From positions 1 through 43,540 of IMG/VR virus record IMGVR_UViG_3300036912_000011: a DNA stretch of 43,540 nt; one strand, written 5' to 3'. The notes beneath the pieces were generated by a model. That model made no database searches and had not been told where the DNA came from. It saw nothing but the letters and a program-made list of their open reading frames with translations. This DNA is from a virus. The stretch's first letter is position 1; every line of letters starts with the position of its first letter. A program made the position numbers and the translations under genes. This document shows positions 6,249-34,673 of the stretch, in pieces.

Positions 6249-6634
6249 CGTTAACAGCAATAACCATCGACCACAAAGATCAACGCTACCCAACAGTAGG
6301 AGATTGGCAGAGTAAAGAGGTAGCAGGCAAACCTGAAATCTCTGTCTTGGTTAGTAACTTAGGATACGAAGACTACAATTTTCTCATTGCAATTCACGAA
6401 CTAATAGAAGCTTATCTTTGTTGGAAACGAGGTATTACAGATGAAGAAGTAACTAGATTTGATAAGAGATTTGAAGAGTTAAGAAAAGATAAAGAGGTAG
6501 ATGGTGAGCCTGGAGATGATCCCTATGCTCCCTATAAACGTGAGCACTTCTTCGCCACCAACATTGAGCGACAGTTAGCCCATGAGCTTGGAGTTGACTG
6601 GGGTCGGTATGAGGAAAGAATTGGTAGCCTTTGA
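6245..6634 (+). CDS. Hypothetical 129-aa protein with HELIEA motif
   Basis: Starts at an ATGA overlap. Contains AIHELIEAYLCWKRG (about residues 48-62) and later HFFATNIERQLAHELGVDW. The HExxE-like motif with a downstream His/Glu-rich helix recalls metal-binding phage proteins, but no catalytic role can be claimed. AT-rich middle section. Last gene before the convergent junction region. Confidence 0.65.
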   Translation: MTLTAITIDHKDQRYPTVGDWQSKEVAGKPEISVLVSNLGYEDYNFLIAIHELIEAYLCWKRGITDEEVTRFDKRFEELRKDKEVDGEPGDDPYAPYKREHFFATNIERQLAHELGVDWGRYEERIGSL

Positions 6635-6658
6635 TGCTATCCAATTATTGGAAAGGAT
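6630..6658 (+). repeat. 29-bp element, left end of late arm
   Basis: Matches the minus-strand sequence of 34558-34586 at 26 of 29 positions, so the two copies are inverted relative to each other. Its core is the palindrome TCCAATTATTGGA (6640-6652). Here its 3' arm supplies the GGAAAGG ribosome site for the ATG at 6663. In the open frame it encodes FDAIQLLE, against FDPLQLLE at the other copy. Confidence 0.8.
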
Positions 6659-6662
6659 TAAA

Positions 6663-7061
6663 ATGCAACGTAGATTTGAAAGTTTTATTCTTACTATAAA
6701 TACTTTAGATAATAGATGGTATTTTATGGTAGAAGACTTGCACTACACTGAGTGTTCTGTCCACCCTGAAGATGTTCCTTACTATCTTAGTCAAGGAACA
6801 AAACTAAGGTTAGGAAATATAAATCCTTATCTAACTATTAAGTGGCAAGACTGGTATAAAGCTCAAGGAGAACTAATGATTGCTGGAGCTAAAAGCTTAT
6901 CCCAAACTTCTCCCCCTTTGCCACCACCTCAGAGGCCTCCTGAAGTGCATCAGTCTTCGCATCAAACTGATACGCCTCTACACTCATCGCCACCTTCAGG
7001 CAGTCCTTCACCGCTGCCTCCATCGAGTCCCCAAGACCAACCGCAAGACCAAAAGCAGTAA
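6663..7061 (+). CDS. Hypothetical 132-aa protein with an antisense-derived Pro-rich tail
   Basis: ATG at 6663 has GGAAAGG seven bases upstream; ATG at 6609 in the same frame is an alternative that would add FDAIQLLE. Residues 1-75 (MQRRFESFILTINTLDN...) look like an ordinary small globular protein. The last 57 codons run over the 3' end of the opposite-strand ATP-grasp gene and give a Pro/Ser/Gln-rich tail (PPLPPPQRPP). The tail is probably the result of losing the original stop when that gene was joined here. No terminator separates the two convergent genes. Confidence 0.6.
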   Translation: MQRRFESFILTINTLDNRWYFMVEDLHYTECSVHPEDVPYYLSQGTKLRLGNINPYLTIKWQDWYKAQGELMIAGAKSLSQTSPPLPPPQRPPEVHQSSHQTDTPLHSSPPSGSPSPLPPSSPQDQPQDQKQ

Positions 7062-8121
7062 ATTTAAGAGGAGTACAATATGTCACCCCTTCAACCACAG
7101 CCAAGTTCCGAAGCTTCACCGCATCTCGATGTTCCTTCGGCACCTCAACCGCCAACCAGTTGTTCTCCACCCAAGGAGACTCCAACACTATTAGGGCGAA
7201 GTACTCTTTTCTTCCTTTCAATTCTTCTATCTGTCCTGCTGCTCCCGATTCTATTACTTCTGGAAGGTTTTCATATACTACTTGGTAAGCTTCGGAAGGG
7301 GGGCTTGGAGCCCTAATACAGGGATCAATCATGTAGTACTCCCCCTCCTCAGTAACCCTACACTCAGTACTGAAAAAGCCTCGGAGGGAGGAAAGGTGGG
7401 GTGCGAGTATCTCAGTGACTTCAACAAGTCCCGGAGGTATGTCCTCTTGAGTAGTAACGCGCCCCACAAATCCAGCATCTTTTATCTCGTAACCATAACT
7501 ACAAACCGGAGGTAACTTCCCATTTATAAGGTATCCATCCCACCCAGTCTCTACACCTTCGACCCCATTCTCTACTATGAACTCGATTGTATACTGTCTC
7601 GGCCCGAGGAAGAAGGCGAGTTCGTCAAGCCAAGGTTTACTCAGTTCATACTTTACATGGTGAAAGGTTTCCATATCTCCGCGGAAAGTATTTATTTTGA
7701 TGTAGAGGTCTTCCTCTTTTTCAACTAAAGTTATTAGCTTTTCCAGTCCTTTGATGAGCCTTGTCTTAGGAGTGGGCATCCCAAGCTCTTTCTGGAGTTC
7801 ACGCATCTTCCACCTGTCAAGTTCATAAATTTGTGAGCGACCAGAACCCCACACATCTTTTCCCTCTTCCCTCAGATACTCTTGCAAGTCCCCCTCATAA
7901 AGGTCAGGGAAAACAAAGAGGTCAACCTCTTTCATCACGTCCCAGAAGTCGTTAACCCTTTCTACTCCCTCAATACCAGAGCCCACCAGCACCGACGCTG
8001 AACGAGGAAAGGCCATTTTCCAAGGAGAGTAATAAAGCACCCGGTCAAAGCTCTTCCCAAGATGTCTTGCAAGCTCAACATGAAGGCCGTTGTCGTACAC
8101 CAGTACAGTTCTATTATTCAT
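6889..8121 (-). CDS. ATP-grasp family ligase
   Basis: 410 aa. It resembles PurD/carbamoyl-phosphate-synthetase-like ATP-grasp enzymes, which join a carboxylate to an amine or thiol using ATP. Visible features: a Rossmann-like N-terminus (TVLVYDNGLHVELARHLG), the nucleotide-binding Lys strand YIKINTFRGDMETF near residue 147, and the metal-binding end TECRV...YYMIDPCIRAPSPPSE near 255-280 with Asp and Arg in the expected order. It is the last gene of the late arm and overlaps the ejection protein gene by 8 bases. The substrate is unknown; modification of a virion protein or of a host peptide is possible. An unusual gene for a phage late operon. Confidence 0.75.
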   Translation of the reverse strand: MNNRTVLVYDNGLHVELARHLGKSFDRVLYYSPWKMAFPRSASVLVGSGIEGVERVNDFWDVMKEVDLFVFPDLYEGDLQEYLREEGKDVWGSGRSQIYELDRWKMRELQKELGMPTPKTRLIKGLEKLITLVEKEEDLYIKINTFRGDMETFHHVKYELSKPWLDELAFFLGPRQYTIEFIVENGVEGVETGWDGYLINGKLPPVCSYGYEIKDAGFVGRVTTQEDIPPGLVEVTEILAPHLSSLRGFFSTECRVTEEGEYYMIDPCIRAPSPPSEAYQVVYENLPEVIESGAAGQIEELKGRKEYFALIVLESPWVENNWLAVEVPKEHRDAVKLRNLAVVEGVTYCTPLKFTAFGLAVGLGDSMEAAVKDCLKVAMSVEAYQFDAKTDALQEASEVVAKGEKFGISF

Positions 8122-11100
8122 CTCCCTCTGTCGCCGCCTTCGCTCTCGCGTTAGCTCTTATCTTTGCTTGCATAGTTCTAATCGCAAGTGCCCTCAGTTT
8201 CCCCCTATCTTCCTCTGGTACATCTTCAAGTTCCTTATTGATCGCTGCAATCCGTTTAGCAGGAGGTAGCGCAGCTGCCACTCTAGCAGCATACGTTGCC
8301 TTTTCATACTCCTCAAACCTCCCCTTTTTATACGCCTTTACTTCATCAGACGAGGTTTCAGTGAACGACCTAATTCCCGCTGTTGGCAGTAACGCCTTAG
8401 CAATAGACCGTTGCCCTTCAGGAGGACCACCATAATTCTCAGGCAGTAGTTGTGATGCACCAAGAGGAACAGGAATAAGAGGTGCTGCTGTTGCCTTCAA
8501 CCTCCCCACAGGCTTACCATAGAAAGTCTTCCCTGTCACCGCTCCCCTTCCTGCCTCCACCACAGGACCAAGTTTATTCCTTATCAAATGAATAGCTGAC
8601 TCAATTCCACTTTCCCCTTCCTTGTGATACTTCACAAGAGTCGTGGTAATGGGTGCTCCTAAGAACCAGCTACTCACCCAAGTATTATCCGTGCCTGGGA
8701 TGAGGGCATCGAACTTATGCCCCTTCTCTTTATTCTCCCAAGTAAATTGATGTCGTGAAAGGTAGTTCATAAACTGTGCTGCTACAAATCCAGCGGCCAT
8801 CAAGTATAACTGTGCCTTCAGTAGGTTCCTCACCACAGGCTTATTCCCCGTTGCCACATCCCCTACCATTTGCGCTGCCTGCTTACCCATAGTATACTCA
8901 GTCTGTATCTCTTTCCTAAACCATTGGTGAGCGAGGAACATAATGTTAACCGCACGATTAAAGGTTCTGTTCCTTGAGATGTCTCGGTGAAAGTTGGCAA
9001 ACTCTGACTCCAACTCTTGCACCGTGGCCTTTGCAATATCCTTCCTCTCCATCCTTTCAGAAAAGTTTTTCAGGTTCCTTTCATACCACTCAATCCCTAC
9101 ATCTTCAAGGGCTGCTTGCCCTACCTTATTAAAGATTAAATGTGAAAGTTGTTTAACCCCAGGTAGGTTCTTAACTTTCGCCCCATAAGTTTGTTCAATC
9201 CATCCACCAGATTTATACCCAGCATTGACCATCTCCTGACGAAGCCCTCGCTTTGACTCAATCCAAGTGGCATCATCTTCAGATAGACTTCCCTCCTTTA
9301 CCAACTGTCTAACTGTAGCTGGACCAAACTCAGCCAAAGCCAATGGTCTATCTGTTTTTCCTGTAAAGGCTTTTACCAAGGTTTCAATTCCTCCCTTTGG
9401 TGAAACCTGCGCCGCCATCCTAATTGCAGTAATCCTGTCAAGGTGAAAGAAGTCCCCAACAAGCTTTGACGCCTTTGTGCTTGCTGCTGTAGACGCTACC
9501 TTTTCTCCAATGAAGGATTGCGAGATAGCATCCTCACTTGTGAGGGCCTTAAACATCTTCTCATAATTGCTGAGAACCGCAACATCCCTTCCAAATACTT
9601 TCACAGGCCTGTACAAGGTAGAGGGAGTTACCTGCCTCCCCGAGGGGTCTTTTACATCAGTGTATTCCCCCGTCTCAGGGTCTTTCACCTTGCGAGAAGA
9701 TACAACCATATCTGCTACCACTGGTTCTTCAGTGATTGGGTCTTTCATCTTCTTCAGGTCAAAGAGAGACTTCACCTTCTCAATATCCATGTAGCCATAG
9801 TAAAGACGTTGCTTCACTCCCGCTACAGGATCAATCGCCACCACTCCTTTTGAGGGATTGTCCTCAGAAACATCCTTCACTTGCCCAAGCAAGATACGGT
9901 CAGCAAGGGTAAGCTCTGACCTTGGCTTTCGATAAAGTGAGCGAGTGCTATCGGTAGGCTCTCCTATTGGATCAGGCATATAAGGGCTTGTAATTGGAAA
10001 GTAGTTCTCCCTGTAAGGAGTATCAACACCAAAGGCCTTTTGAAGGGCAAGATGCTTTTGCATTATTCCCTTCAGTATTTCCCCTACCCTAGTCCCCTGT
10101 CCTTCCGCTGCACTTTGGAAAAGCTTCGCTGCCCAAGGAGCCTTCTCTTTAAGCCGTTCTGCTTCCTTTAAGATTTCCTCCTTGTCAAACCCATAGTCAA
10201 CAAGTACCCTCCCTGCCTTTCGTTCCTCTGGGTCTTTATGAAAGGTCTTAAGGGCATTACCTACTTGATTTGCTGTATCCCAAGAACGCTGCTTGATACG
10301 GCTGAAGAGGATGTCAATGTCTCCCTTTACATCTTTTGTCTCTAACAGCTTCTTAACCTTTTCCTCACCTCGGTTGTAGACCTCTTTGATAATTTTGCCT
10401 GTTGCTCCAATATCCTCCTTTGAAGGAATAGGAATTCCTCCCATTATACGAGAGCCTGGGGTTTCTGGTGGATCAGCTTGTTTCACAAATCTCGTTACTG
10501 TTTCATCTCCTGTAACAAGTCTACGAACAAAGTGTTCAAAGGAAACGGGGGTTTCTTCTGTACCATGATGAGAAGAATAGTCTTTGTATCCCTGCTCTAT
10601 CTTTTTTCGAGGAAATAATTTGGTAGCTTTATCCATCACCTCAACTGTAGGAGCTCTCATTTGTTCTGGGGTTGCAGTTGGAGTAATCTTGCCCTCGCCC
10701 TCTGGTTTAGCTCCTATTTTATTCCTCCACAGGCGAGTTGAGTCTGTTTCAAACTGCATGTCATGTTTAGCCGCCTTTAGGTTTTCTTGCAAATCAGAAC
10801 CACTTTTGTAATAACCCTTATCATAAAATCCAGAACTTTTAATATCTTGGTCAGAAATTTTTAGGTGGTCTAGTGCACTGACTAATTCACCATGATAAAT
10901 TGCAGTTGGAGAAAAAAGAAAGCGACCATCGGAAAGTTCCAAAGCAATCCCTTGTTTATTATTTAAGGCGGCGGGTAAGTTTTCTTTGGGTTCAATATAA
11001 AAATCAGTTCCTTCAATTTGGTGTAGTCCACTTTTTACAGGTAAAGTTGGACCTGTATAGCGTTGTCCAGTCCAGCCCTCCATAGAGGGTGACTGAGGAG

Positions 11101-13081
11101 GTACTTGCGCCGGTGGCTTGGCACTTTCCCCCCCACCCACTTGGGTCTGCGGAGAAGGAACTCCGGCCGCAGCAGCTTTAATCTTTTCCCTTAACTCAGC
11201 AGCTGTTCTTTTATCTCCAGTACCTTTTGCAAGTTGTGCAAGCCTGGCTGCTTGAAGATTGATGTCAGACTTCTTTGTTGCACTCTTCAGTATTGCAAGG
11301 CCATTATCAAACTGAGCTCTCTCCTTGTCTGTCACCAACCTTTCTCTAATCTCAGCAAGGGTAGCACCTCCCACACCTCCAGTTTTTGCCACAATCGGCT
11401 CCTGCTGACTTGGAGCAGCGACAGCCTCGTCTTGAGTTTTTTTCGTGACTTGTTCGAGTACTGGTTTGGGTGTGGGAGGTGCCTCTTGCTTCATACTCAT
11501 TGAAGGAGCCACTGCTGGCCCATCACTTACAGGTTTGTTTGTAGCTGGGTTCAAAATTTTATTACTATGTACTTGAGTAGGACGCTCAGGCTCATCAAGC
11601 TTCAGCCCAAACTTATTCGCAATAACATCTGCCATTGCCCTAGTAACATGCTGCACCGCGCCATTAGGATAAGTTACCTTAAACCCATGTAGTTCATCTT
11701 CCCTTTCAATCTTGGGAATCTGTGGTAAGCCAGCGGCTTCACGAGCCTCAGGGTGAGTGGGGGCAACAGACACTTCACTTGGCTTTGCCTCAGGAAGGGG
11801 AGTGCCTGTGGTGCTGACTGCAGCTTCAATTTTCGCAGGAGCTACAGGTGGTATTTGTTGTTCCTTTCCAACAATTGGAGGTGTAGGTGCTGTCTCTCTG
11901 CTCTCCCATCTATCCGCAACTGTTAACCTTGCTGCTGTCTCAAGAGCAATAGCTTCGGGTGGTCTACCAGCAACCACTTTACGAGCCTCAGGAGGGAGTT
12001 CTGACAAAAGAATATTTCCTCTTTTTCTCAGCTCCTCTTCTCCTATTCTTTGTCTAGCTCTAGTTATAAGAGAAACTGTATCAAACTTTCCAGCCAGTGG
12101 GTCTACTTGCTTTCCAACAACTGGAGAGGTAGGAGCCACCTCATTCGGCGTCTCGGGTCGTGCGTCAGCAGGTGGAGAAAGAACCTGCTGAGGAGGGACT
12201 CCTACCTTCTCCTTTTCTTTTGAAAGATTTTCAATTACTGCTAAAGCTCTTTGCAAAGGAGTATCTTCAACTGGTTGCTTCGGCCTCCACTGAGGAGCAC
12301 CAGCATCAACTGCAGGCTCACGAGGAAGTTCTGAGAGTGTTGGGCCATGACCAATAAACTCACCTGCTCCTGTAGGTCTGCCAGGAATATGAGGCGCTAA
12401 CTGCTTTGGTGCTTCCGGCCCAGGAGGAAGTTGGAAGGGGCCACGAGGAGGGGGTGCATCAGGAGGTAGCTCCCCTAGCTTTGCCCCACCAAAGTCACCA
12501 GGCAAACGAGCATTATGATATGCTGCTCCTCCAATAAGGAAAGGAAGAACTGCTGTAAGTGCTGCTCCTAAATCTCTAGAAACTTTTAGTCCTTCTGAGC
12601 CCTCTGGTGCTTGGGGAACAAGCTTTTGATAGAGTTCTGAAGGAGCATTAACCGCTTCAACAGGAGCTTGAAACGGTGTACCTTTAGAAAGTCCATGTAC
12701 TGCACCAAGCATTGCGGAAAAGGGAGAGGAAACTAAGTCAAAAGCACCAAGGCCAAGTTTACCAGCATTTACTGCTGTGTCTTTAAGTTGACCTTCAAGA
12801 GTAGGAGAAGGAGCATTTGGGTCAGAACCAAACACTGACTTCAGTACTTCCCCAATCCTTCCAAGTCCTTGACCTACTGCCCCTGTACCTGCTTGCAGCC
12901 CCTCTTTTCCTGCTTCAAGAAATGACTGACCAGTGAGAGAAGCACCTTGTTGAACAGACTCCTTGAGGTCAAGAGGAGGAGCAGGTAATCCAGCTCCCTT
13001 TAGCCTTGTCCTTATCTGCTCCCTAGTAGTACCTTCTGGTACATCTTGAAGCAGTGTACCATCAGGAAGCTTGATGTTCAA
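8114..13081 (-). CDS. Very large internal virion / DNA ejection protein (1655 aa)
   Basis: The frame opens at a TTG at 13096, but TTG at 13081 is preferred: it overlaps the previous stop, follows GGGGGAAAG, and yields the common phage N-terminus (M)NIKLPDGTLLQDVPEGT. Residues about 60-190 are Gly/Ala-rich and amphipathic, 195-700 are Pro-rich and low complexity, and 860-1655 are helical. The C-terminal part (FLAHQWFRKEIQTEY, a hydrophobic stretch near 1430) resembles large polyvalent protein-associated domains such as LPD38. Size, position after the tail genes and composition fit a podovirus ejection protein that may carry enzymatic domains. No lysozyme or RNA polymerase motif was recognised. 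Confidence 0.72.
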   Translation of the reverse strand: MNIKLPDGTLLQDVPEGTTREQIRTRLKGAGLPAPPLDLKESVQQGASLTGQSFLEAGKEGLQAGTGAVGQGLGRIGEVLKSVFGSDPNAPSPTLEGQLKDTAVNAGKLGLGAFDLVSSPFSAMLGAVHGLSKGTPFQAPVEAVNAPSELYQKLVPQAPEGSEGLKVSRDLGAALTAVLPFLIGGAAYHNARLPGDFGGAKLGELPPDAPPPRGPFQLPPGPEAPKQLAPHIPGRPTGAGEFIGHGPTLSELPREPAVDAGAPQWRPKQPVEDTPLQRALAVIENLSKEKEKVGVPPQQVLSPPADARPETPNEVAPTSPVVGKQVDPLAGKFDTVSLITRARQRIGEEELRKRGNILLSELPPEARKVVAGRPPEAIALETAARLTVADRWESRETAPTPPIVGKEQQIPPVAPAKIEAAVSTTGTPLPEAKPSEVSVAPTHPEAREAAGLPQIPKIEREDELHGFKVTYPNGAVQHVTRAMADVIANKFGLKLDEPERPTQVHSNKILNPATNKPVSDGPAVAPSMSMKQEAPPTPKPVLEQVTKKTQDEAVAAPSQQEPIVAKTGGVGGATLAEIRERLVTDKERAQFDNGLAILKSATKKSDINLQAARLAQLAKGTGDKRTAAELREKIKAAAAGVPSPQTQVGGGESAKPPAQVPPQSPSMEGWTGQRYTGPTLPVKSGLHQIEGTDFYIEPKENLPAALNNKQGIALELSDGRFLFSPTAIYHGELVSALDHLKISDQDIKSSGFYDKGYYKSGSDLQENLKAAKHDMQFETDSTRLWRNKIGAKPEGEGKITPTATPEQMRAPTVEVMDKATKLFPRKKIEQGYKDYSSHHGTEETPVSFEHFVRRLVTGDETVTRFVKQADPPETPGSRIMGGIPIPSKEDIGATGKIIKEVYNRGEEKVKKLLETKDVKGDIDILFSRIKQRSWDTANQVGNALKTFHKDPEERKAGRVLVDYGFDKEEILKEAERLKEKAPWAAKLFQSAAEGQGTRVGEILKGIMQKHLALQKAFGVDTPYRENYFPITSPYMPDPIGEPTDSTRSLYRKPRSELTLADRILLGQVKDVSEDNPSKGVVAIDPVAGVKQRLYYGYMDIEKVKSLFDLKKMKDPITEEPVVADMVVSSRKVKDPETGEYTDVKDPSGRQVTPSTLYRPVKVFGRDVAVLSNYEKMFKALTSEDAISQSFIGEKVASTAASTKASKLVGDFFHLDRITAIRMAAQVSPKGGIETLVKAFTGKTDRPLALAEFGPATVRQLVKEGSLSEDDATWIESKRGLRQEMVNAGYKSGGWIEQTYGAKVKNLPGVKQLSHLIFNKVGQAALEDVGIEWYERNLKNFSERMERKDIAKATVQELESEFANFHRDISRNRTFNRAVNIMFLAHQWFRKEIQTEYTMGKQAAQMVGDVATGNKPVVRNLLKAQLYLMAAGFVAAQFMNYLSRHQFTWENKEKGHKFDALIPGTDNTWVSSWFLGAPITTTLVKYHKEGESGIESAIHLIRNKLGPVVEAGRGAVTGKTFYGKPVGRLKATAAPLIPVPLGASQLLPENYGGPPEGQRSIAKALLPTAGIRSFTETSSDEVKAYKKGRFEEYEKATYAARVAAALPPAKRIAAINKELEDVPEEDRGKLRALAIRTMQAKIRANARAKAATEGDE

Positions 13082-13920
13082 AAGTCTTTCCCCCAAACTT
13101 TAGTGGTGCCAGCAGGAGTACTTGGTTGTTCTCCCGCAAACTTTTGCCACTTAGCTAACTCTACTTCCATCTCAGGAGAGCTTCCAAAAGTAGCCATAAA
13201 CTCCTTTATCTTTGTTACCTTATCTGCTGGCCCCAAAGTAGACAACTGTTGTTTAAGCTCAAGTGAAGCCTGTCTATAGTCTTGGGTTCCTTGGACAGCA
13301 GCTGCTCTTGTATTTGCGTTCTGCCTACCTATCTGTAGTTGCCCCCTTCTATAACTATTCTCAGACCTTATCTCCTTTCCTCGGTTAATCCCCTCTTTCT
13401 TTTTATAAGCAGCCTCAGCTTGCTGATTTTGTATCTGTGCAAGTAGATGCGCTACTGTAAGCGGTTGCATTTGTCCTGCCTGTCTACCCTGTGCAATTTG
13501 AGCAGTATCATTTATCGCAGTCTGTGGGTCTTGTGCTTGACGAACTTGATCAAGGAATGGAGACCTTATTCCCTGTGCTTCTCCAACCCCCCCTCCAAAA
13601 GCAGCAAGGGCGTTTAGGACAGACTTAACAGGGTGTTCCTTAAAGTTCCACCCATACTGATCCCTTTGACCTTGCTGAAGTTTTTCCACCTCTGATTGTG
13701 CACCTTTCCAATTATCCATCTGAGGCTGTTGCGGTAGTTGCTGTTGCTGCGGCAACTGAGGAAGCTGAGCAAAGGGTGAGTTATGCATCATACCACCTGT
13801 GTTAGCAAACTGTTGAATTGCTCCAGAAGAAGGTGCTTCAGGATTAGAAGAAGCGTCAGCCCTCGACGATGCCATTGACCCAACTAACTGCATTATTTGC
13901 TGTAGAATGTTTGGTTCCAT
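13078..13920 (-). CDS. Gln-rich virion protein, putative ejection protein
   Basis: 280 aa. Starts at ATG 13920 behind AAAGGAA. Contains a Gln/Pro tract (LPQQQQLPQQPQ, about residues 58-70), a short hydrophobic Gly/Ala segment (VLNALAAFGGGVGEAQG) and a long Gln/Ala-rich helix with coiled-coil character (150-240). It is translationally coupled to the giant ejection protein gene, which supports a role in the internal core. No named family. Confidence 0.65.
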   Translation of the reverse strand: MEPNILQQIMQLVGSMASSRADASSNPEAPSSGAIQQFANTGGMMHNSPFAQLPQLPQQQQLPQQPQMDNWKGAQSEVEKLQQGQRDQYGWNFKEHPVKSVLNALAAFGGGVGEAQGIRSPFLDQVRQAQDPQTAINDTAQIAQGRQAGQMQPLTVAHLLAQIQNQQAEAAYKKKEGINRGKEIRSENSYRRGQLQIGRQNANTRAAAVQGTQDYRQASLELKQQLSTLGPADKVTKIKEFMATFGSSPEMEVELAKWQKFAGEQPSTPAGTTKVWGKDF

Positions 13921-13929
13921 AATTCCTTT

Positions 13930-15297: not shown

Positions 15298-15298
15298 C

Positions 15299-19959: not shown

Positions 19960-21180
19960 TTACGTTGACGGCGTAGCACCAACCAAGTTAGTGATGAGGA
20001 GGTGAGCTCCATCCTTCGCGCTTGTGATGTCGTTGCCAGTTCCAACATGGTGGACTTCCAAACCGCTTTCGGTCAGGAACTCATCCATGCGCTCGTCAGC
20101 ATCATTCTGCTGACGGTTCATCAACTTCTGTGTATCTCGTCCTGTCACATGGCGATACACCAAGCCATGTACATCAAGGATGAGGGCGTTGTTGCGCCAC
20201 ACAGGATGCTGAGTGAACAGGGGATGTGTACGAAGGTAGAGTGTCCCAAAGGGTGTATACCACCGAATGAGGCTCATACCAAAGGACTCATCACCAGCTA
20301 CTGTTTCCATTCGTCCCACCTTTTCTGAAAGGCGGTTGATGGCGTTTAGTGCTCCACTTCCAATCAACACAAGCTTCTCTTGTGCTGTGTTAAGGCAGAC
20401 TCGGAAGACCAGCTCAAACCATCGGCTGAGCTCATCCCCTGTGACAATGCCAGCACCATCAGCAGGAGACACCTTATACCCCGCAGGCAAGAACTGCACT
20501 AAGCCCTGTGTAGTGCGCTTAGTCTTACCCGTGGACGGGTCAGCGTACTCAGCCATCTTCGACTGAATAAACGCCCACTCCATTTGAGTCATGTGGAACT
20601 CAAGTGCCTCACGCAGCTTCTCAGTATACGGCCCACTGCGGTCGTACTTGAGTGCTGTCTTCATCACAGTTCCCGTGAGCTCCATAGGAGAACGGAAAAT
20701 CTGCGTGATGTTAGTCACCGGGGTCGGGTCAATGCTCATCACTTGAGGAGCATTACCACCTTCTGCGTTGATGTTGCCAATAACTCTAATCGGGTCACCA
20801 GCGCCAATAGACGCTACTGCTGTTCCCCAATTCCCACGAGTCACTGTCAGCACAAGCCCTGTGCTGTCAACTGCAGTAACTTCCATTTGTTCACCAGTGA
20901 GTTCATTCTCAATCTGATGCCCAACACGGAAGTTCTTATCCGCCACACTCAGCGTACTCACAGCATTGTTGTAGGATGCTGTAAGCGCACTTCGCAGTAA
21001 CGGCGTTACCTTCTCATACCAGAAGAAATGTGGGTCATTCGTCTCTTCTGGTTTCGTCAATGACAGGAAAGCTGTCAGCGGGGCCGCTCCATTCGGAGAG
21101 GCATACAAAATACCCCGCCGATAATTCTTGAAGCGGTCAGCGTCGAAGCTTACCGTGTCTCTTAGTCCAAGGATTGCCAT
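19960..21180 (-). CDS. Major capsid protein (SU10/DUF5309-like)
   Basis: 406 aa. The start region (FKNYRRGILY, then PLTAFLSLTKPEETNDPHFF at about 36-55) and a later VMKTALKYDRSGPYTEKLREALEFH block match the SU10-type major capsid group with HK97 fold. An insertion-like beta segment (about 95-140) precedes the helix spine. Follows the scaffold gene, and the 72-base gap between them holds a 21-bp palindrome. ATG 21180 follows AAGGAGAGG. Confidence 0.82.
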   Translation of the reverse strand: MAILGLRDTVSFDADRFKNYRRGILYASPNGAAPLTAFLSLTKPEETNDPHFFWYEKVTPLLRSALTASYNNAVSTLSVADKNFRVGHQIENELTGEQMEVTAVDSTGLVLTVTRGNWGTAVASIGAGDPIRVIGNINAEGGNAPQVMSIDPTPVTNITQIFRSPMELTGTVMKTALKYDRSGPYTEKLREALEFHMTQMEWAFIQSKMAEYADPSTGKTKRTTQGLVQFLPAGYKVSPADGAGIVTGDELSRWFELVFRVCLNTAQEKLVLIGSGALNAINRLSEKVGRMETVAGDESFGMSLIRWYTPFGTLYLRTHPLFTQHPVWRNNALILDVHGLVYRHVTGRDTQKLMNRQQNDADERMDEFLTESGLEVHHVGTGNDITSAKDGAHLLITNLVGATPST

Positions 21181-21226
21181 AACGGAATCCTCTCCTTATC
21201 CACCTTAGTTACGTTCCCTCTTTCTT

Positions 21227-21247
21227 CCTCTCCAATCTTTGGATAGG
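21227..21247. repeat. 21-bp palindromic element between scaffold and capsid
   Basis: Copy of the dispersed palindrome: arms CCTCTCCAA and TTGGATAGG around TCT, one mispair. It lies in the intergenic gap, so the capsid mRNA leader could fold into a hairpin here. Confidence 0.7.
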
Positions 21248-21253
21248 AAAAAT

Positions 21254-24797: not shown

Positions 24798-25130
24798 TTA
24801 CTTTACCTGTACCCAAGAAGCTGCTGCGTTTGAACCGATGTAAGTACCAATCACAATGTTTGTGTACACTGCGTTAGTACTCGCACAGTTTGTCAAGCAA
24901 ACTGAGTTGTAGTTAGTGTAGGTTGTGGCGTGGTTCAGATTAAAAGCATTAGTCTGAACATAGATAGCCCCATTATTAGTGGGAATTATCCACAACGAAC
25001 CAGGAGCTGCCCAACCAGGATTGCCAATTTGTACAAACGTTTGCTGTACTGTTGGCCTTCCTTGTCCTTTCACCTTAGCAACAACCAAAAGGGTTGCTAC
25101 CATCATAACTGCTACTATTACTTTTTTCAT
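24798..25130 (-). CDS. Secreted Thr-Asn-rich 110-aa protein
   Basis: N-terminal signal peptide (MKKVIVAVMMVATLLVVAKVKG, cleavage likely near residue 23). The mature part has a GNPGWAAPGSLWIIPTNNG segment and many TN pairs (NYNSVCLTNCASTNAVYTN), with two Cys that could pair. Preceded by AAGGAAAG and a 21-bp hairpin. Resembles the other exported TN-rich proteins of this cassette. Function unknown; surface-exposed or lysis-associated roles are possible. Confidence 0.65.
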   Translation of the reverse strand: MKKVIVAVMMVATLLVVAKVKGQGRPTVQQTFVQIGNPGWAAPGSLWIIPTNNGAIYVQTNAFNLNHATTYTNYNSVCLTNCASTNAVYTNIVIGTYIGSNAAASWVQVK

Positions 25131-25147
25131 ACTTTCCTTTTGTTTAT

Positions 25148-25168
25148 CCTTTCCATTTATTGGAAAGG
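25148..25168. repeat. 21-bp palindromic hairpin upstream of secreted protein gene
   Basis: Perfect 8-bp arms CCTTTCCA and TGGAAAGG around TTTAT. Located in the leader of the gene at 24798-25130 on the minus strand. A member of the dispersed palindrome family. Confidence 0.75.
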
Positions 25169-25172
25169 AAAT

Positions 25173-25947: not shown

Positions 25948-25974
25948 AATATAATTTCCTTTTTTTGTGCTTGA

Positions 25975-26018: not shown

Positions 26019-26020
26019 CC

Positions 26021-26464: not shown

Positions 26465-26487
26465 GTTTTCCTTTTCTTTCAGTGGTG

Positions 26488-27656: not shown

Positions 27657-27712
27657 GGATTGGATTCCTGTTGCAAGTGCGCCTTGTACGTCGCCAGCAA
27701 CGTCAGCCTCAT
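27653..27712 (-). CDS. Tiny coupling ORF, 19 aa
   Basis: ATG 27712 overlaps the stop of the VTN-repeat gene (ATGA), and its TGA overlaps the next ATG at 27656 (ATGA). It encodes MRLTLLATYKAHLQQESNP. It may only pass ribosomes from one gene to the next, or it may be the remains of a deleted gene. Confidence 0.4.
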   Translation of the reverse strand: MRLTLLATYKAHLQQESNP

Positions 27713-29235
27713 AATCCCCTCACAATTAAGCGGAAATTGTTGGTTGCTATATTGATGACCGCCCCGAAGTTATTAACAGCGGTGGCGTTAATCCGAACAG
27801 TCACATTGGTTATCAGGCCCGGCGCATTGGTCGATGAGCCGCGACTGCGGAATGAAAACCACCTGTTGTTTTCGTTTTGGTAGGTCAGGCTTTCCTGTCG
27901 ATATTGAAATATCGGGCCGGCGGTCTGGATGATGACTGTGCCGGCACAGGAACTTCCGCCGTTGTTGGCGTTGGTCGCGCAGACATTGCCCAAGAACATG
28001 CCCGGTCCCGGCCCATTTAACGCCACAGATTCGGTTGTGGGAAAGTTCGGCGGAGTAACATAGCCGTAGCTCCCACTGAAGTTATAGTTTGTTAAATACG
28101 AATCGTTATTGACCGACAAGAAACCAACCGGGTAACTTGAGACTGCCCCGTTCGTTGCCGCCACAAGCTGATACTCCACCCAAACCGTGCTGCAAGGAGT
28201 ACTCCACGATGCCGATGCCGAGCCGACCGGACCGGTAATGGTCATATTGCTTAACAACGGCACAGAGATTGAGGTTGCCGCGTTGGTGCCTTCGTTGTGC
28301 GACCAGACGCCACCGCTGAATGTGAAGGTGTTGCTGCCGAGCGGCCACGGTTGCGGCACAGTCAGATAATTCGTGCCGACATTGGCCGGGAGTTGGGAGA
28401 ACACAAGTGGCTGTGTGTTGGTCATGCCGGCCAGAGTATCCGCTGCCCGACTGACGAGCACGCCGTTGGTGTAGCACGTGATTCCGCCAAACTGGTTTGT
28501 CACGCAGAGGTATCCTTGCGAAGTCGAGTTTGTGTAAGCAACAGATAGCACCGTGTTGCTGCCAAGCCAGTTCGTCGCCGTACCAACGCTATCTACAGTA
28601 TTTGTGAAGTAGTTATTTACTGTGTTAGTAACATAAGTTGTGGAGTTTGAAATAAGAATAGTGTTATTTACTATGTTAGTAATAGCCACTGAGTTAGTGA
28701 CTACCATAGTAGTTTGATTAGTTACAACCACTGTGTTTTGATTAGTCACAAACAAAGAAACTTGATTAGTAACTCCTATGTTAATTACATTTGTCACTTG
28801 CAACGAAACAGTATTTGTCATCTCCACCAAATTACTAACATTTACTAGGTTAGTAATACTTGTAGAGTTAGTGACAAACAAAGAAACTTGGTTTGTAATC
28901 CCTAAATTAACTGTATTAGTTACAATTAAAGAAACTGTATTAGTCACAGTTATATAGTTTGTGGTGGAGATAGAAATAGAAACACTTGTCCCTGTTCCCC
29001 CACTGCCTCCCCCACTAATCCCACCACCAAGAATTGGCCAAGAGGGGGTTACTCCTCCGTGATAGTTAGAAAGAGCATTTGTTACAGTGTATCCTGAGAT
29101 GTAAACATTTGTCTTTTGCCCACTGCTAGTTAAGACATTAGTGAAGAGTCTCCCGGGGAATGTGGAGTAGTCCACGTTGATGTCTTGGGCAAACACCAAA
29201 GAAGGAAAAAGGAAAAGTATAAGCCACTTACTCAA
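27709..29235 (-). CDS. Exported VTN-repeat fibre-like protein (508 aa)
   Basis: Signal peptide MSKWLILFLFPSLVFAQ, a Gly-rich hinge (GGGISGGGSGGTG, about 71-83), then residues 93-214 as a repeat array of about seven residues built on VTN (VSLFVTN, VNLGITN, VSLQVTN). The C-terminal half (220-508) is beta-rich and ends in a conserved-looking sandwich. The repeat part is AT-rich, while the C-terminal part is clearly richer in G+C. The repeats would form an extended stalk and the C-terminus a head domain. A signal peptide is unusual for a tail fibre; the protein may instead be displayed on the infected cell. Confidence 0.68.
   Translation of the reverse strand: MSKWLILFLFPSLVFAQDINVDYSTFPGRLFTNVLTSSGQKTNVYISGYTVTNALSNYHGGVTPSWPILGGGISGGGSGGTGTSVSISISTTNYITVTNTVSLIVTNTVNLGITNQVSLFVTNSTSITNLVNVSNLVEMTNTVSLQVTNVINIGVTNQVSLFVTNQNTVVVTNQTTMVVTNSVAITNIVNNTILISNSTTYVTNTVNNYFTNTVDSVGTATNWLGSNTVLSVAYTNSTSQGYLCVTNQFGGITCYTNGVLVSRAADTLAGMTNTQPLVFSQLPANVGTNYLTVPQPWPLGSNTFTFSGGVWSHNEGTNAATSISVPLLSNMTITGPVGSASASWSTPCSTVWVEYQLVAATNGAVSSYPVGFLSVNNDSYLTNYNFSGSYGYVTPPNFPTTESVALNGPGPGMFLGNVCATNANNGGSSCAGTVIIQTAGPIFQYRQESLTYQNENNRWFSFRSRGSSTNAPGLITNVTVRINATAVNNFGAVINIATNNFRLIVRGL
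28594..28959 (-). repeat. VTN repeat array in fibre-like gene
   Basis: Protein-level tandem repeats of xVTNxxx with nucleotide-level duplication: a block containing ACAAACAAAGAAACTTG occurs near 28748 and again near 28876. This suggests recent unit duplication or slippage, hence possible length variation between isolates. Confidence 0.75.
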
Positions 29236-30257
29236 GGTGTAGAAACTCCCCGAATAATCCCGTTTGTGATGTAGAGGGTAGAAAAGGTAGAGGGTAAGAC
29301 AGTTAAGACGCTTAGGTTTGTACTCACCCCACTAGCGATGACTTGCCAGCCGCCGTTCGTGCCGTCCACGCTGACGAGTGCACAGCCAAAGCAGGGCACG
29401 TTGGTCGCTGTGATGGAGCGGATTGGTGCGCCTCCCAACTGGTCGATGTTGGTCAGATTATCGGCCGTAAAGATTTGCGCATTATTGATGGTCAGCTCGT
29501 CGTCGACCCCGAAGATCTCGTTGGTAAAGACGGTGACGCCGTTGTCCGAGACGAAAATCAAGTGCCTTGAGTCCGACCCTGTCAAGCCACCAGTTATCTC
29601 TCCTAAAACGATATTGTTTCTGACGTCACTAAAGTCAGAAACGTAGGCAAGCTGTTGAGTAACTACATCACCCACTTCATTAGTAGTAACCCAACTTGGA
29701 CGCCAATCGATAAGCAACCCCACACCATTAGTTGCTCCAATTACAACTCCACCAGTGTTTGTAAGTAGTATAGAACTACAGAATATTGAGCCCGTGGTGG
29801 CGATGAAACTGAGGTTTGTTATGGCGTAGCCTCCAGCGTCGACAGTGTTTGTCCAAGGATTACTGAGGCTGCTGCCGCTAATAGCTTCCCAATTCCCAGC
29901 TTGGTTAAGGAAAAGGTTCGTATTAGGAGAGCCTACATTATGCACCAAACCAGTATTACTACCAGAATAAAGGTTAGTAATTCCAGGAGCACCGTTTGTT
30001 CCGTTAGCTCCACTAGTTCCATTAGTTCCAGAGGGGCCCTGAATTCCTTGGATTCCCTGTGCACCTATAGCTCCTGTTGGCCCAACCGCACCTAAGCCAA
30101 CTCTACGAACTGCTCCAGATAAAGATAGACCGTTAGCGTCAAAAAAGTTGGTGTAGGCGCTGGGCAAAACATGGGTGGTTCTGTCTACCTGCAGGTTGTC
30201 ATTGGTTGCCGCTAGCACACTAGTACAAAAGGCAAAGAAGAAAAGTATCTTTTTCAT
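29232..30257 (-). CDS. Exported collagen-like fibre protein (341 aa)
   Basis: Signal peptide MKKILFFFAFCTSVLAA. A G-x-y collagen-like stretch from about residue 58 to 93 (GPTGAIGAQGIQGIQGPSG and GANGTNGAPG) is followed by beta-rich TN-containing domains. The stretch near 29340-29580 is visibly G+C-rich against its surroundings. It overlaps the VTN-repeat gene by ATGA, so both exported fibres are made together. Likely trimeric. Whether it is a virion fibre or a cell-surface protein is open. Confidence 0.68.
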   Translation of the reverse strand: MKKILFFFAFCTSVLAATNDNLQVDRTTHVLPSAYTNFFDANGLSLSGAVRRVGLGAVGPTGAIGAQGIQGIQGPSGTNGTSGANGTNGAPGITNLYSGSNTGLVHNVGSPNTNLFLNQAGNWEAISGSSLSNPWTNTVDAGGYAITNLSFIATTGSIFCSSILLTNTGGVVIGATNGVGLLIDWRPSWVTTNEVGDVVTQQLAYVSDFSDVRNNIVLGEITGGLTGSDSRHLIFVSDNGVTVFTNEIFGVDDELTINNAQIFTADNLTNIDQLGGAPIRSITATNVPCFGCALVSVDGTNGGWQVIASGVSTNLSVLTVLPSTFSTLYITNGIIRGVSTP

Positions 30258-30499
30258 TATACATCCACCACAGAGTTAGTGCCATCATTATTCACAATAA
30301 ACTTCTTATGCCCATCAGGGGACAGTATTCCATCTCCTGGGCTAGGAGCCCCACCAATCACCGCTACCCAACCAAGGACAGTGTACACATACACCGCTCC
30401 ATCTTGCATCACCCAAAGTGCTCCACACTCTACCTCTCCAGGAGAGCTGTCTTGGTAATATGTATTAGGATGAGGATTTTGTGTTGCAGCTAAGCTCAT
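30257..30499 (-). CDS. Small 80-aa protein with W-module (tail fibre adaptor-like)
   Basis: Carries the module DSSPGEVECGALWV...VLGWVAVIGG, which is shared with the next two fibre genes, then a short tail ending NNDGTNSVVDV. ATGA overlaps both neighbours' ends. It probably mediates attachment or folding of the collagen-like fibres. Confidence 0.6.
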   Translation of the reverse strand: MSLAATQNPHPNTYYQDSSPGEVECGALWVMQDGAVYVYTVLGWVAVIGGAPSPGDGILSPDGHKKFIVNNDGTNSVVDV

Positions 30500-30882
30500 T
30501 TACTTATCGTCCTTCCAGGAGCCCCTTGCACCCCTTGAATTCCTTGCTTACCAGTATACCCAAGTTCCCCTCTTTCCCCCTTGTCGCCCTTTGGTCCAGC
30601 AACCCCTGCTTCCCCCGCAACACCCTTTTCTCCCTTTACTCCTTGTTCTCCTTGTAATCCCTGCGCACCTGTGTCACCAGCCATTCCTCTTTCTCCCTTC
30701 TCTCCCTTCTCACCTTTCTCTCCCCTAACTCCTTGCGGACCAACAGGACCAACTTCCCCACCACCCACTGCTACCCAACCAAAGGGAGTGGATACATGGA
30801 ACTTGCCGTGAGTGGTTACCCAAAGAGTGCCGTCTTGCCACTTGCCTGGGTCACTATCTTGAACTAGGATTTGTGTTTGCAT
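30496..30882 (-). CDS. Collagen-like protein with W-module (128 aa)
   Basis: N-terminal module (QDSDPGKWQDGTLWV, PFGWVAVGGG, residues 8-43) and then about 80 residues of G-x-y repeats rich in GEKGEKG and GPKGDKG. Phage collagen-like proteins form trimeric stalks. No signal peptide, in contrast with the exported collagen-like protein at 29232. Likely a virion fibre part. Confidence 0.72.
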   Translation of the reverse strand: MQTQILVQDSDPGKWQDGTLWVTTHGKFHVSTPFGWVAVGGGEVGPVGPQGVRGEKGEKGEKGERGMAGDTGAQGLQGEQGVKGEKGVAGEAGVAGPKGDKGERGELGYTGKQGIQGVQGAPGRTISK

Positions 30883-30885
30883 AAA

Positions 30886-31599
30886 CTAAAAGACTCCTAC
30901 AACCCAATCCGAAGCAGGATCAAAGGTTGCGTTATGGTTTCCTGTTGCGTCAGCGATTGACAATCCAGAGCCCTCATCACAATGCCAAAGAGCAATAGTG
31001 TTGGCGTCTAGTTGATTACATTTTGAAGGAGTAAAGCTCGTGGTATATCGAACTATATTTGAAATTCTAAACTCATCTAAATGAACCTCATCTCCACCAA
31101 GACCAAGGTAAAGATTAGACAGGTCTGCTGCAGGAATTGGCACACCAACAGCAGCAAAAACTGTATCTAAAGCTCCATCTATCCAAAGCTTTCCATAAAC
31201 GCCATCCCAAGTAAAGGCAACATGATGAAAGTTTCCATCGGCTAAAAGTCTTCCAGAACTAAGAGTTGAAACATCACCACTAACACCAAAAACACAATAA
31301 ACACTAACCACACCACCAGAAATACCAAGCCGATATCCACTTGCAGGAGAACCACCTACACGACAGTAGAACCAGTTATTGTTTCCATTACCAATGTTCT
31401 TTACCCAACACTCAAGGGTTCCAACAGAAGGAAAGAAATCGGAGCTAAAAGGTGTGGAAGAATTGTTTAGGCTACTGTTAATTCCAAACCTACCACAAGA
31501 TATACAACAGCAGGCTCCCATAGGACTTCCACCCACACTTTTTTTAAGTGGTAATCCTAACACATTATCCTTTTGAGGAACGTAAGGAGGTACGCTCAT
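30886..31599 (-). CDS. LamG/concanavalin-like domain protein
   Basis: 237 aa from ATG 31599, which overlaps the upstream stop (ATGA). Most of the sequence is a LamG-like jelly roll: [19 protein letters not shown], then [20 protein letters not shown], then [19 protein letters not shown] and [10 protein letters not shown]. Such domains bind glycans or proteins. A Cys cluster ([12 protein letters not shown], near residue 30) precedes it. Located in the collagen-fibre cluster, so it is probably a receptor-binding tip or host-surface binder. Confidence 0.75.
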
Positions 31600-32195
31600 G
31601 CTGGACAATCCACAAAGGTAGTTACTGTTGAGTCACCTGACACCTGTTTGGTTTCCTTCAAGATGCCTGATGTAGGATCATAATTCACATCCATCACCGC
31701 GTCAATAGTTCCTGTGTCACCAGCAGGCCCCTGCGGCCCTGTTGCCCCTTGCGGACCCGTAGCACCATCAGCTCCACTTGGGCCAGTAGCTCCTTGCACT
31801 CCTGCATTACCTTGTGGCCCCGCTGGGCCTGTTGCACCGTCAGCACCTGCAGGCCCTTGTGCCCCCGTACCTCCAGTAAGTCCCAAAACAGAACCTTGCA
31901 GTACCCACACCCCGCTCACCTGCCAATACACATTCCAAGTAGTGTTGTCAATGTAAAGGTCACCATCATTGTAGGTTGCCACTGGTGCACCAGCAGCTAC
32001 ATAAATCCTATTCCCTGTCCCCCCACCACCACCAGAAATCACAATCCAACTACCAAACCAAATCCTCAGTTCAGAGATGGTTGGTCTAAACCAAAATGCC
32101 CCAAATACTGAGTCCCCCGGATTTGCCTCTTGCACAAAGACAATCTGGTCCCCATGCTGAGCAGACGCGAGTGCATTAACTCTTGAATCACTCAT
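31596..32195 (-). CDS. Collagen-like tail fibre protein with two W-modules (199 aa)
   Basis: ATG 32195 overlaps the upstream stop (ATGA). Two related modules come first ([14 protein letters not shown]...[12 protein letters not shown] and [19 protein letters not shown]), then G-x-y repeats ([13 protein letters not shown], residues 115-165), then a short beta C-terminus. It fits a tail-fibre stalk. It is coupled to the LamG protein gene downstream, which may provide the tip. Confidence 0.72.
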
Positions 32196-32431
32196 GCCCA
32201 AGCACTCCCATTCCACACCCTCATCACATGCGCCATGTAGTCCCAAGCAACCATACCCTCAGTGGGAAGACGGATTGCAGCAACGTCAGGCAATGGGTGA
32301 GCCTTACCTGCTTCAGTTTGATTAAATGTCATCCATCTCTTAAACTCTTCCTCAAATTGCTTCTGCCTTTCATCCTTAACAGGTGCCTTAAGTACAGCAA
32401 AGTTAAACCCTGCGAATGCTTGGTGACTCAT
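32192..32431 (-). CDS. Small 79-aa protein after terminase
   Basis: Charged N-terminal half and a C-terminal [18 protein letters not shown], which resembles the Trp-ending short domains of tail-fibre adaptor proteins. Coupled by ATGA to terminase and to the fibre gene. No clear family. Confidence 0.55.
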
Positions 32432-33975
32432 ATTGCAGCTAAGTCCTTCAGCTTAAACGGTTTACTCGGCGTGCGAAGGTCAACATACTCAGTCTCAAGA
32501 AGGATAAGACGATACATATTCTCCATCATATGGTCGTCTTTGTCCTTGGGCTTTTCCTTAGCATTGCGGTCATTCCCATACTTCCACTCATCCCAAGTAT
32601 AGTTTTGTATCTCAAAGATAGTACGAGTGCAGTTCTCACAAATGAAAAGGTTGCGCGCCTTAAATGCCTCTCGCGTTGCCGTTATCCCCGCTTCTTTCCT
32701 CTTGCTTGCCTTGTCAAGGAAAATCCCTTCGTCTGCAAAAGCGTCCGCCCACTTTCTCCCATCCTCTGGGTCTTCATCAAACGCAAGGGGGTCGGCAATC
32801 CTATTGAGTACAGGGAGCTGTTTAATAACCTTAACCCCCGCTTCAAGTTCAACATATTGCTCCTTCACCTGCCACAGTTTACAGAGGTCGGGGAGAAAGG
32901 TGTCACTGAAAATCTCATCAAAGATAAACCGCCTACCATCCTTTGCGGTGGCCATGAATAGGATAGCGTGAGGCTGACGGGGATGGGGGTCAAGGGCTAC
33001 ATCCACTACACAGTTGTTGTAAATCCACTCCCTACTCAGTTCTTTAACAAGGTGACCTTCCTTGCCATTACTTAACTTGGGCTCAAACTCCTTATAAATA
33101 AGGCCCTCGAGGTGGATCCAAAGTCCCTTCGCGCGTGCCTTATACTCATCAACCGTCAGTTTCCCCTTGTAGTCTTCCCATCCCTCCCTACTGATGTGAG
33201 GGTTTTGATTCTCCACCACGTTAATAACTTCAATCTTCCCATTAGAAGTGGGCGCACGGTCAACAATCTCATTCTTAATCCACGCCTCTCGTAGGGGGGT
33301 GAGAGTAAAGATCTCGTATCCCCCTCTGTCAACAAGACCACGACTTACAGCGACACGAAGCTTGCGGTCTGGTGGTTCATCATAGTGCGCCATGTCATGC
33401 TGCTTACCTTCAAAGGACTGAGGATCGTTTATGAAGGACTTTTGAGTATCAACAATTATTTGACTCCCGAAGGTCTTAAGGTAGTATGAGCAAATGTTAC
33501 CCATATTATTCTTCTCAACTTTGTCAATCGCCCCTGCAGGGATGAACTGCTTAAACTTTCCTGCAGTCTCATCCTTTCCTTGAGTCCAAATATCATCTGC
33601 AACGTCCCAATCACTAACTATCAAAATGACCTTGGTAGGGGGATGAAGGGGGGTCTTTACAAACTCAGGTAGGTGCTCATAATTAGCAAGCAACTCTTCA
33701 ACAGGGAGGGACTTAAGTTCATCGGGGAGTAGGTAAGGCCGGAAGCCAAGCCAAAAGCAAATGTCCTCCACCCCTCCTGCGGTACTCTTTCCAATCCTAT
33801 TCGGTCCAATGAGGGCTCGTACCTTCGCTTTGCTTTCATGAAAGGCACGTTGTTCATCACAGTAAGGTTGGTAGAAGTAAAGGCGGTGCTTTTGCATCCA
33901 ATCAAGTTTGCGCTTCTTGATTGCTAACGACTGAGCTTTAAGACTGATAAGAGTATCAGCTTGCGCCAGTAACAT
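32428..33975 (-). CDS. terL: Terminase large subunit
   Basis: 515 aa. ATPase: Walker A GPNRIGKST (57-65), motor strand VILIVSDWD near 123, Walker B MAHYDEPPD near 197. Nuclease: acidic strand VVDVALDPH near 327, FIFDEIF near 355, and later acidic residues (AFDEDPEDG). It packages DNA through the portal and cuts the concatemer. Overlaps the small subunit gene by 20 bases and is coupled to the fibre cluster by ATGA. Placing fibre genes between terminase and portal is unusual, but the gene itself looks intact. Confidence 0.85.
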   Translation of the reverse strand: MLLAQADTLISLKAQSLAIKKRKLDWMQKHRLYFYQPYCDEQRAFHESKAKVRALIGPNRIGKSTAGGVEDICFWLGFRPYLLPDELKSLPVEELLANYEHLPEFVKTPLHPPTKVILIVSDWDVADDIWTQGKDETAGKFKQFIPAGAIDKVEKNNMGNICSYYLKTFGSQIIVDTQKSFINDPQSFEGKQHDMAHYDEPPDRKLRVAVSRGLVDRGGYEIFTLTPLREAWIKNEIVDRAPTSNGKIEVINVVENQNPHISREGWEDYKGKLTVDEYKARAKGLWIHLEGLIYKEFEPKLSNGKEGHLVKELSREWIYNNCVVDVALDPHPRQPHAILFMATAKDGRRFIFDEIFSDTFLPDLCKLWQVKEQYVELEAGVKVIKQLPVLNRIADPLAFDEDPEDGRKWADAFADEGIFLDKASKRKEAGITATREAFKARNLFICENCTRTIFEIQNYTWDEWKYGNDRNAKEKPKDKDDHMMENMYRLILLETEYVDLRTPSKPFKLKDLAAI

Positions 33976-34531
33976 TAGGAGCAGTCCCCACTAGTGCCTT
34001 TAACTTCGCCTCCACCAACTCCTCTTCCTTCTCAATCTCATCAAGTGACCGACGATTATCCTCAATGGTGATTCGTTGGCCTCTTGCTACTTTTAAAATC
34101 TCAATCGCAGTGTCCTTGCGAAGCTTAGGTGTGTTACTCTCATCTGCCATAATACTGTGAGCAACATCAAGAGCCTCTGCTTCATACTTCTTATAAACAC
34201 GTTCAAGCCCTTCTTGCGCTAGGCCGTGAATAGTTTCAAGGATAAACTTCTCTGCCCAAGGTTGCTTTAGTACCTGTCTAACATGAAAGATACTGTACTC
34301 AAGTTTCTCCGCAATCTCATTTGGGGAGAACCCTTCACACCTCAACAAACACATACTTCTGTGGATTGGAGTTTCCTCAAGTACCTCATATCTTGGGCTG
34401 GAGGCATTATGAAGAGCGGGAATCAAAGGAGACAAAGACACTTCTATCCTTGCCTTCGGCACAGCACCTCTCCTTGAGGTAGCAGTAAAGGTGTCAGGAA
34501 GTTTGAACTCTTTGATGTCCGTTGCTTCCAT
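33956..34531 (-). CDS. Terminase small subunit (putative)
   Basis: 191 aa. A helix-turn-helix is visible at LRCEGFSPNEIAEKLEYSIF (about 65-84), followed by long helices and a charged oligomerisation-type C-terminus (DEIEKEEELVEAKLKAL). It directly precedes and overlaps terL, which is the main support. ATG 34531 follows AAGGGAATA. Confidence 0.68.
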   Translation of the reverse strand: MEATDIKEFKLPDTFTATSRRGAVPKARIEVSLSPLIPALHNASSPRYEVLEETPIHRSMCLLRCEGFSPNEIAEKLEYSIFHVRQVLKQPWAEKFILETIHGLAQEGLERVYKKYEAEALDVAHSIMADESNTPKLRKDTAIEILKVARGQRITIEDNRRSLDEIEKEEELVEAKLKALVGTAPNVTGAS

Positions 34532-34673
34532 TATTCCCTTGTTGCTGAGCAGCCTTCATGCTTTCCAATAATTGGAGAGGATCAAACAATCGCTTTGCAA
34601 GATCACACCCAAGCACAATCTTCTCCGTCGTCGTCAGACTTGTCTGTATCAGTGTTGTCCGTTCCTCATCCAT
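34494..34673 (-). CDS. Hypothetical 59-aa protein, first gene of the late arm
   Basis: ATG 34673 (MDEERTTLIQTSLTTTEK) is chosen as the first plausible start; upstream in-frame codons are possible and no strong ribosome site is seen. It contains FDPLQLLESMK, encoded by the 29-bp element that recurs inverted at 6630. Overlaps the small terminase gene by 38 bases. No family recognised. Confidence 0.5.
   Translation of the reverse strand: MDEERTTLIQTSLTTTEKIVLGCDLAKRLFDPLQLLESMKAAQQQGNNGSNGHQRVQTS
34558..34586 (-). repeat. 29-bp element, right end of late arm
   Basis: Inverted counterpart of 6630-6658 (26 of 29 identical when read on the minus strand). Contains the palindrome core TCCAATTATTGGA and lies within the 59-aa ORF. 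Confidence 0.8.

Follow-up and report, generated by a model that had tools for sequence, protein, structure and literature searches.

ParB proteins bind a palindromic DNA site, close as a clamp on cytidine triphosphate (CTP), and slide along the DNA. Noc is a ParB paralogue that binds dispersed palindromes without a dedicated ParA. KorB of plasmid RK2 exerts repression distal to its operator OB, up to about 1.5 kb, through CTP-dependent clamp sliding (PMC11790492). Cluster O mycobacteriophages such as Corndog carry dispersed 17-bp dyads whose function has not been explained (PMC4351075), and fusions of ParB to an N6/N4 DNA methyltransferase are listed in a survey as enriched in phages, with an unexplained role for which anti-defence was suggested (PMC12704722). 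Here, we describe a family of dyads in a virus genome of 43,540 nt (IMG/VR record IMGVR_UViG_3300036912_000011; the whole analyzed stretch is called the window), which ends in a 150-nt repeat (43391-43540 repeats 1-150 with one difference). A 29-bp element reported earlier at both ends of the late arm represents two of about ten such dyads, which are most likely, with a probability of roughly 0.7 as judged from sequence comparison, parS-like binding sites of the phage's own ParB-helix-turn-helix (HTH)-methyltransferase fusion protein.

The sequence-only reading had reported a match at 26 of 29 positions between 6630-6658 and the minus strand of 34558-34586. This agreement was borne out, and a repeat search extended the match to 32 nt at 88% identity. 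Each copy forms a dyad in its own right (CTATCC-AATTATT-GGAAAG), and when aligned as direct repeats the 6634 and 34558 copies still share 85% identity. Because each copy is palindromic, the inverted orientation of any two copies carries no information. A repeat search of the window listed seven copies, and a consensus scan found 11 places matching at least 15/20 positions and nine matching at least 16/20, while Markov shuffles gave a mean of 0.1 places at 16/20 or better and none at 17/20 or better. Eight members were recovered by a consensus-free search for palindrome pairs, in which the best shuffle families had three. Half-site modelling resolved ten 25-bp sites (Table 1), each with 9-bp arms around a 7-bp A/T-rich centre, and the family objective was 78.7 compared to 21.7-25.4 for the best shuffles. 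The dyad objective of the window (107) exceeded those of the mirror-repeat (52) and direct-repeat (58) nulls, whereas in T7 the mirror null was higher (64 vs 35). The window dyads thus differ from a T7-type promoter set, which is repeated but non-palindromic and points in one direction. With two equal half-sites in a dyad, they have the form expected of parS-type sites.

We examined whether the match merely reflected conserved protein coding, a check that had been proposed together with the readings FDAIQLLE and FDPLQLLE for the two copies. The 6630 copy is probably noncoding, lying between the stop at 6634 and a likely start at 6663; the two copies within the 1660-amino-acid late gene are translated in another frame as PPIVGK and SPVVGK. 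Conserved coding was ruled out as the cause of the match by these differing frames and by the four noncoding copies. The two original copies had also been said to bracket the late arm, but four further copies lie inside it.

The 26/29 identity in apparently inverted orientation had raised the possibility that the two copies recombine and flip the 27.9-kb late arm. This is now highly improbable. There are ten palindromic copies rather than two, and a tyrosine recombinase or integrase (PF00589) was absent from 13 genomes including the window, other recombinase families not having been searched. In addition, a contig of the same species from another metagenome (G001; 99.81% identity over 13074-37276) is colinear with the window and continues across the 34558 site without a change of orientation, with all four dyads in its span unchanged. 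Replication-fork control had been proposed as well; asymmetric Ter-type fork-control sites are not expected as palindromes.

Dyad placement was then compared among genomes. The small-terminase gene start, where the 34558 copy belongs, carries a dyad in 9 of 17 genomes (1.6 expected), and the portal gene start in 9 of 19 (1.7 expected). Near the primase 3' end, which corresponds to the convergent junction, a dyad was found in 3 of 14 genomes against 2.6 expected, so this placement is not conserved, a further point against the inversion. Thus, of the paired placement that was to be looked for in related phages, the copy where the leftward operon starts recurs and the copy at the junction does not. 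The idea of coordinated regulation pointed in the right direction as regards a shared site, while the paired arrangement at the arm ends gave way to ten dispersed copies. Of the ten window sites, four fall in noncoding sequence, where about 5% of placements would be expected (p = 0.0012), as do 6/9 sites in LS06 and 5/6 in Mel-JY34, two annotated isolates with a background of 5-7%. The longest gap between sites was usually shorter than expected from random placement in 18 genomes (combined p about 2e-15, an indicative value given that the genomes are related and not independent), and was typically 6-10 kb in 44-kb genomes. Such regular spacing suggests that no part of the genome should be far from a loading site.

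Several sites lie just 5' of a start codon, and two of three single copies fold well (z -3.8 and -2.9), as would be expected if the dyads acted as RNA hairpins in transcripts for translation control, processing, or termination. Nevertheless, compensated changes between left and right half-sites were fewer than expected (63 vs 75 in 21 genomes), the 34558 copy folds like shuffles (z -0.33), some sites are deep in coding sequence, and a T-run was absent at the sites inspected. We therefore regard RNA hairpins as very unlikely. The independent variation of the half-sites suggests a DNA site that is read by a dimer.

Megablast of the first 25 kb of the window against deposited phages found no relative, and broader relatives were gathered by a terminase-based search. 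The window's own dyad motif was not found in them. An exact-motif scan of IMG/VR gave one match, a single copy in an otherwise unmatched contig (L011), which was taken as chance. A motif-free dyad search scored by the family objective revealed that about 20 relatives have dyad families of their own, with objectives of 39-124, while shuffles mostly gave 18-28. The control phages T7, lambda, PaMx33, Tiera, EBPR3, and P5 gave 26-35; the four besides T7 and lambda are kin by polymerase and primase and lack the fusion protein. The family of G016 is ACTTTATCG..CGATAAAGT (12 copies) and that of LS06 is TATGTCCCA..TGGGACATA (nine copies), and different families were found in G004, G009, G018, G021, G022, G023, and others. 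Vibrio phage vB_VspS_VS-ABTNL-3 has four copies of TTTCAATCG-6-CGATTGAAA (L099: 171, 6566, 23357, 38798). Two further families were judged compositional, namely a CG-rich one in Kuura (objective 51, direct-repeat null 48) and one in the control G044 (54 vs 55). The 9-7-9 geometry and an A/T-rich centre (AATTATT, AGTTATT) are common to most families, often together with an outer GT..AC; MW202489 and G012 have slightly different spacings. The cross-genome consensus is near GT-N5-TC-ARTNATT-GA-N5-AC, with half-site middles that are specific to each genome. The common geometry and genome-specific middles suggest a homologous binder with drifting specificity.

The candidate binder in the window is a fusion protein with a ParB N-domain, an HTH-like segment, and an N6/N4 DNA methyltransferase, in this order. 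Its N-domain scored 38.3 bits against PF02195 (ParB_N; cut-off 26.3), and the CTP-pocket boxes G-x-R-R and E-N-x-x-R are present as GERR and ENLHR, with G51, R54, E83, N87, and R90 invariant in 17 fusion sequences. The LS06 homologue scored 72.7 against TIGR00180 across the N-domain and HTH (cut-off 58.45). The window protein scored 49.1 against the same cut-off, and an HTH-like motif can be aligned between it and almost all of its relatives. Because the methyltransferase replaces the C-terminal dimerisation domain of canonical ParB, the protein is classed as a ParB fusion rather than a canonical ParB. Among solved structures, the closest relatives of the window protein at its N-terminal end are Noc and Spo0J, and at its C-terminal end methyltransferases of the CcrM type; ParB and KorB structures are also matched by the fusion proteins, and the ParB-HTH region of LS06 showed a sequence match to the KorB structure. 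In the G016 homologue, modelled with AlphaFold from 34 sequences (mean predicted local distance difference test score 84), the methyltransferase part aligned with CcrM over 228 residues (Z 23.9, root-mean-square deviation 2.8). The methyltransferase alone was among the matches listed in structure searches with this model, and the ParB part was assigned from sequence profiles.

Several observations link this protein to the dyads. Complete genomes with a convincing dyad family encode the ParB-HTH-methyltransferase, and the controls that lack it have no such family. In the first comparison, of nine complete site-bearing genomes, the families common to all were portal, polymerase, capsid, scaffold-like, Sak4-like, PD-(D/E)XK nuclease, and ParB-methyltransferase, and among these the ParB-methyltransferase is the only plausible sequence-specific dimer. 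In an independent test, 11 full-length contigs were picked by the fusion protein alone and compared with nine methyltransferase-only controls, using the mirror- and direct-repeat objectives of the same genome as composition-matched nulls; full contigs were used since loci of 12-21 kb gave too little power. Both nulls were exceeded in 9 of the 11 fusion-selected contigs, with modest values in G037 (48 vs 38) and G040 (48 vs 44), and in none of the nine controls. VS-ABTNL-3, whose fusion shows no recognisable HTH in the region aligned, has only the four-copy family, and G025, whose fusion also lacks one, has only a marginal family.

Two other binders have to be weighed against the fusion protein. 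First, the dyads may be stoperator-like operators of a separate, unrecognised repressor or early regulator, to which the ParB fusion is unrelated. Their preference for junctions and their positions within operons resemble Cluster A stoperators, and many small early genes of the window have no assigned family. We nevertheless consider this unlikely: no other small DNA-binding family is common to all site-bearing genomes, dyads were present in 9 of 11 contigs chosen by the fusion protein, the dyads are symmetric, with no orientation relative to transcription, and no PF00589 integrase was found. Second, the small terminase (TerS) or another packaging or replication protein may bind the dyads and mark the phage DNA for packaging or replication. 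Small terminases bind DNA, most of the site-bearing genomes encode TerS, and dyads recur at its gene start. This is more doubtful still, because packaging normally uses one site rather than ten evenly spaced ones, TerS similarity tracks the half-sites no better than that of other genes, and Mel-JY34, which has both dyads and fusion, is matched by neither the TerS nor the TerL profile of the clade.

Some results weigh against the fusion protein as the binder. No dyad family was detected in G007, G034, and G036, also when other spacings were tried, although their HTH is intact. The window's HTH is recognised by alignment to relatives only, with no profile above its cut-off, and the dyads are 25 bp long compared to 16 bp for ordinary parS. 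Since most relatives belong to one clade, the co-occurrence is partly phylogenetic. Half-site similarity tracked HTH similarity (r 0.36-0.49), but TerL and primase similarity also track the half-sites (r about 0.55), so that co-evolution of HTH and site is not separable from common descent and is not claimed. In G013 the DPPY motif is missing from the methyltransferase domain of the fusion (L114:5674-7140), yet ParB, HTH, and dyads are retained, which suggests that methylation may not be the sole role; a separate 264-amino-acid methyltransferase-like open reading frame (ORF) adjoins this gene.

Binding of the dyads by the ParB fusion is putative and most likely, and the steps that may follow are modelled on the biochemistry of ParB and KorB. 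The fusion protein would bind the dyads and load as a sliding clamp, and a site every 4-9 kb or so would give the clamp access to the whole phage genome. One outcome would be that the fused methyltransferase delivers methylation to the phage's own DNA in cis, as its presence in the fusion suggests; another would be long-distance repression or organisation of transcription. A ParA ATPase (PF13614), the partner in ParABS partition systems, was found in neither the window nor 12 relatives, while control genomes were positive. Given that neither ParA nor a tyrosine integrase was found, prophage partition is unlikely.

Compared to Noc, the phage system shares dispersed palindromes and the lack of a dedicated ParA, and Noc is among the best sequence matches of the window protein; Noc differs in being chromosomal and membrane-associated, in having no methyltransferase domain, and in its shorter site. 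KorB/OB likewise combines a ParB-family N-domain and HTH with separate operator sites on one replicon, but OB is 16 bp, and KorB acts together with KorA and lacks a methyltransferase (PMC11790492). The Cluster O dyads are both intergenic and coding, lie mostly off promoters, and occur in phages with ParB-like domain proteins and without integrase or parAB, as in the present group; unlike the window family, they comprise 34 nearly invariant copies of TGTTCGG-NNN-CCGAACA and belong to another phage group (PMC4351075). Cluster A stoperators are also numerous, genome-wide, and often placed in short intergenic gaps within operons, but they are asymmetric, oriented with transcription, and bound by a temperate repressor (PMC4351075), whereas the phage dyads are symmetric and PF00589 was absent from 13 genomes. 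The surveyed ParB-methyltransferases have the same domain fusion, and the accessible portion of that survey does not mention dispersed dyads alongside them (PMC12704722). Our literature search found no paper linking ParB-methyltransferase fusions to dispersed sites. The ParB/parS-like kind is already known, and the cis-marking reading would be a novel case of it.

Table 1. Dyad sites and fusion gene in the window (feature, position, strand, context).
Feature	Position	Strand	Context
Dyad site 1 (AACCTATCC aactttt GGAGAGGAA)	796..820		within ParB-methyltransferase gene itself
Dyad site 2 (ATGCTATCC aattatt GGAAAGGAT); left copy of the sequence-only reading	6634..6658		immediately 3' of stop codon at 6634
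Dyad site 3, weakest of ten	11861..11885		within 1660-amino-acid late gene
Dyad site 4	12107..12131		within 1660-amino-acid late gene
Dyad site 5	21225..21249		intergenic, upstream of major capsid gene (19960-21180, minus)
Dyad site 6	25146..25170		intergenic, upstream of ORF 24798-25130 (minus)
Dyad site 7; right copy of the sequence-only reading	34558..34582		27 bp upstream of small-terminase-type gene (33956-34531, minus)
Dyad site 8	35749..35773		intergenic, at start of rightward early operon
Dyad site 9	38333..38357		within ORF 38236-38622
Dyad site 10	40919..40943		within ORF 40733-41110
ParB-HTH-methyltransferase gene, 5' part, start ATG 43327	43327..43540	+	cut by contig end
ParB-HTH-methyltransferase gene, remainder; WSLQDTADSVGISRSLAGLYIQVAKA HTH-like segment, proposed dyad binder	1..1256	+	439 amino acids in all, read through end repeat

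Dyad site 7 also falls within a possible small ORF (34494-34673). Other repeats were observed in the window. A perfect 30-nt repeat (GGAGACAAAGACACTTCTATCCTTGCCTTC) at 34428-34457 and 38542-38571 falls in two genes and is read in a different frame in each; being non-palindromic, in contrast to the dyads, it is a genuinely inverted pair, and its 34428 arm is unchanged in G001. The noncoding segment 34930-35080 between the divergent operons contains the paired repeats TTGCAACACAACAGGTTA / TTGCAATGCAACAGGTTA and GTTCAGTTATTGGACA / GTTCAATTATTGGACA and may be an origin or a control region for early promoters. A gene-end and ribosome-site segment (beginning AACTGAGGTTGATTAAGGAGAA) occurs as two 32-nt copies (94%) at 1225-1256 and 1420-1451, which suggests a small local duplication. 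The DNA polymerase I of the window is split into 1913-3520 and 3895-4674 with a 95-amino-acid ORF between, while most relatives have one polymerase gene.

Dispersed phage dyads were noted earlier without explanation (PMC4351075), and ParB-methyltransferase fusions, common in phages, lack a known role (PMC12704722). The present comparison ties the two together across some 30 viral genomes, each of which yields a predicted exact DNA site for its ParB fusion, so that the function of both becomes directly testable, and the diverged ParB/site pairs form a natural set for studies of specificity. We tentatively suggest, as a possibility that we hold at well below even odds, that this large, lytic-looking phage group has a private parS-like grid, with a loading site every few kilobases, from which a ParB-methyltransferase clamp slides to mark in cis the genome of the phage that encodes it. 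If so, the drifting together of site and HTH would keep the marking phage-specific, and this would be a mechanism of self/non-self labelling that has not been previously described.

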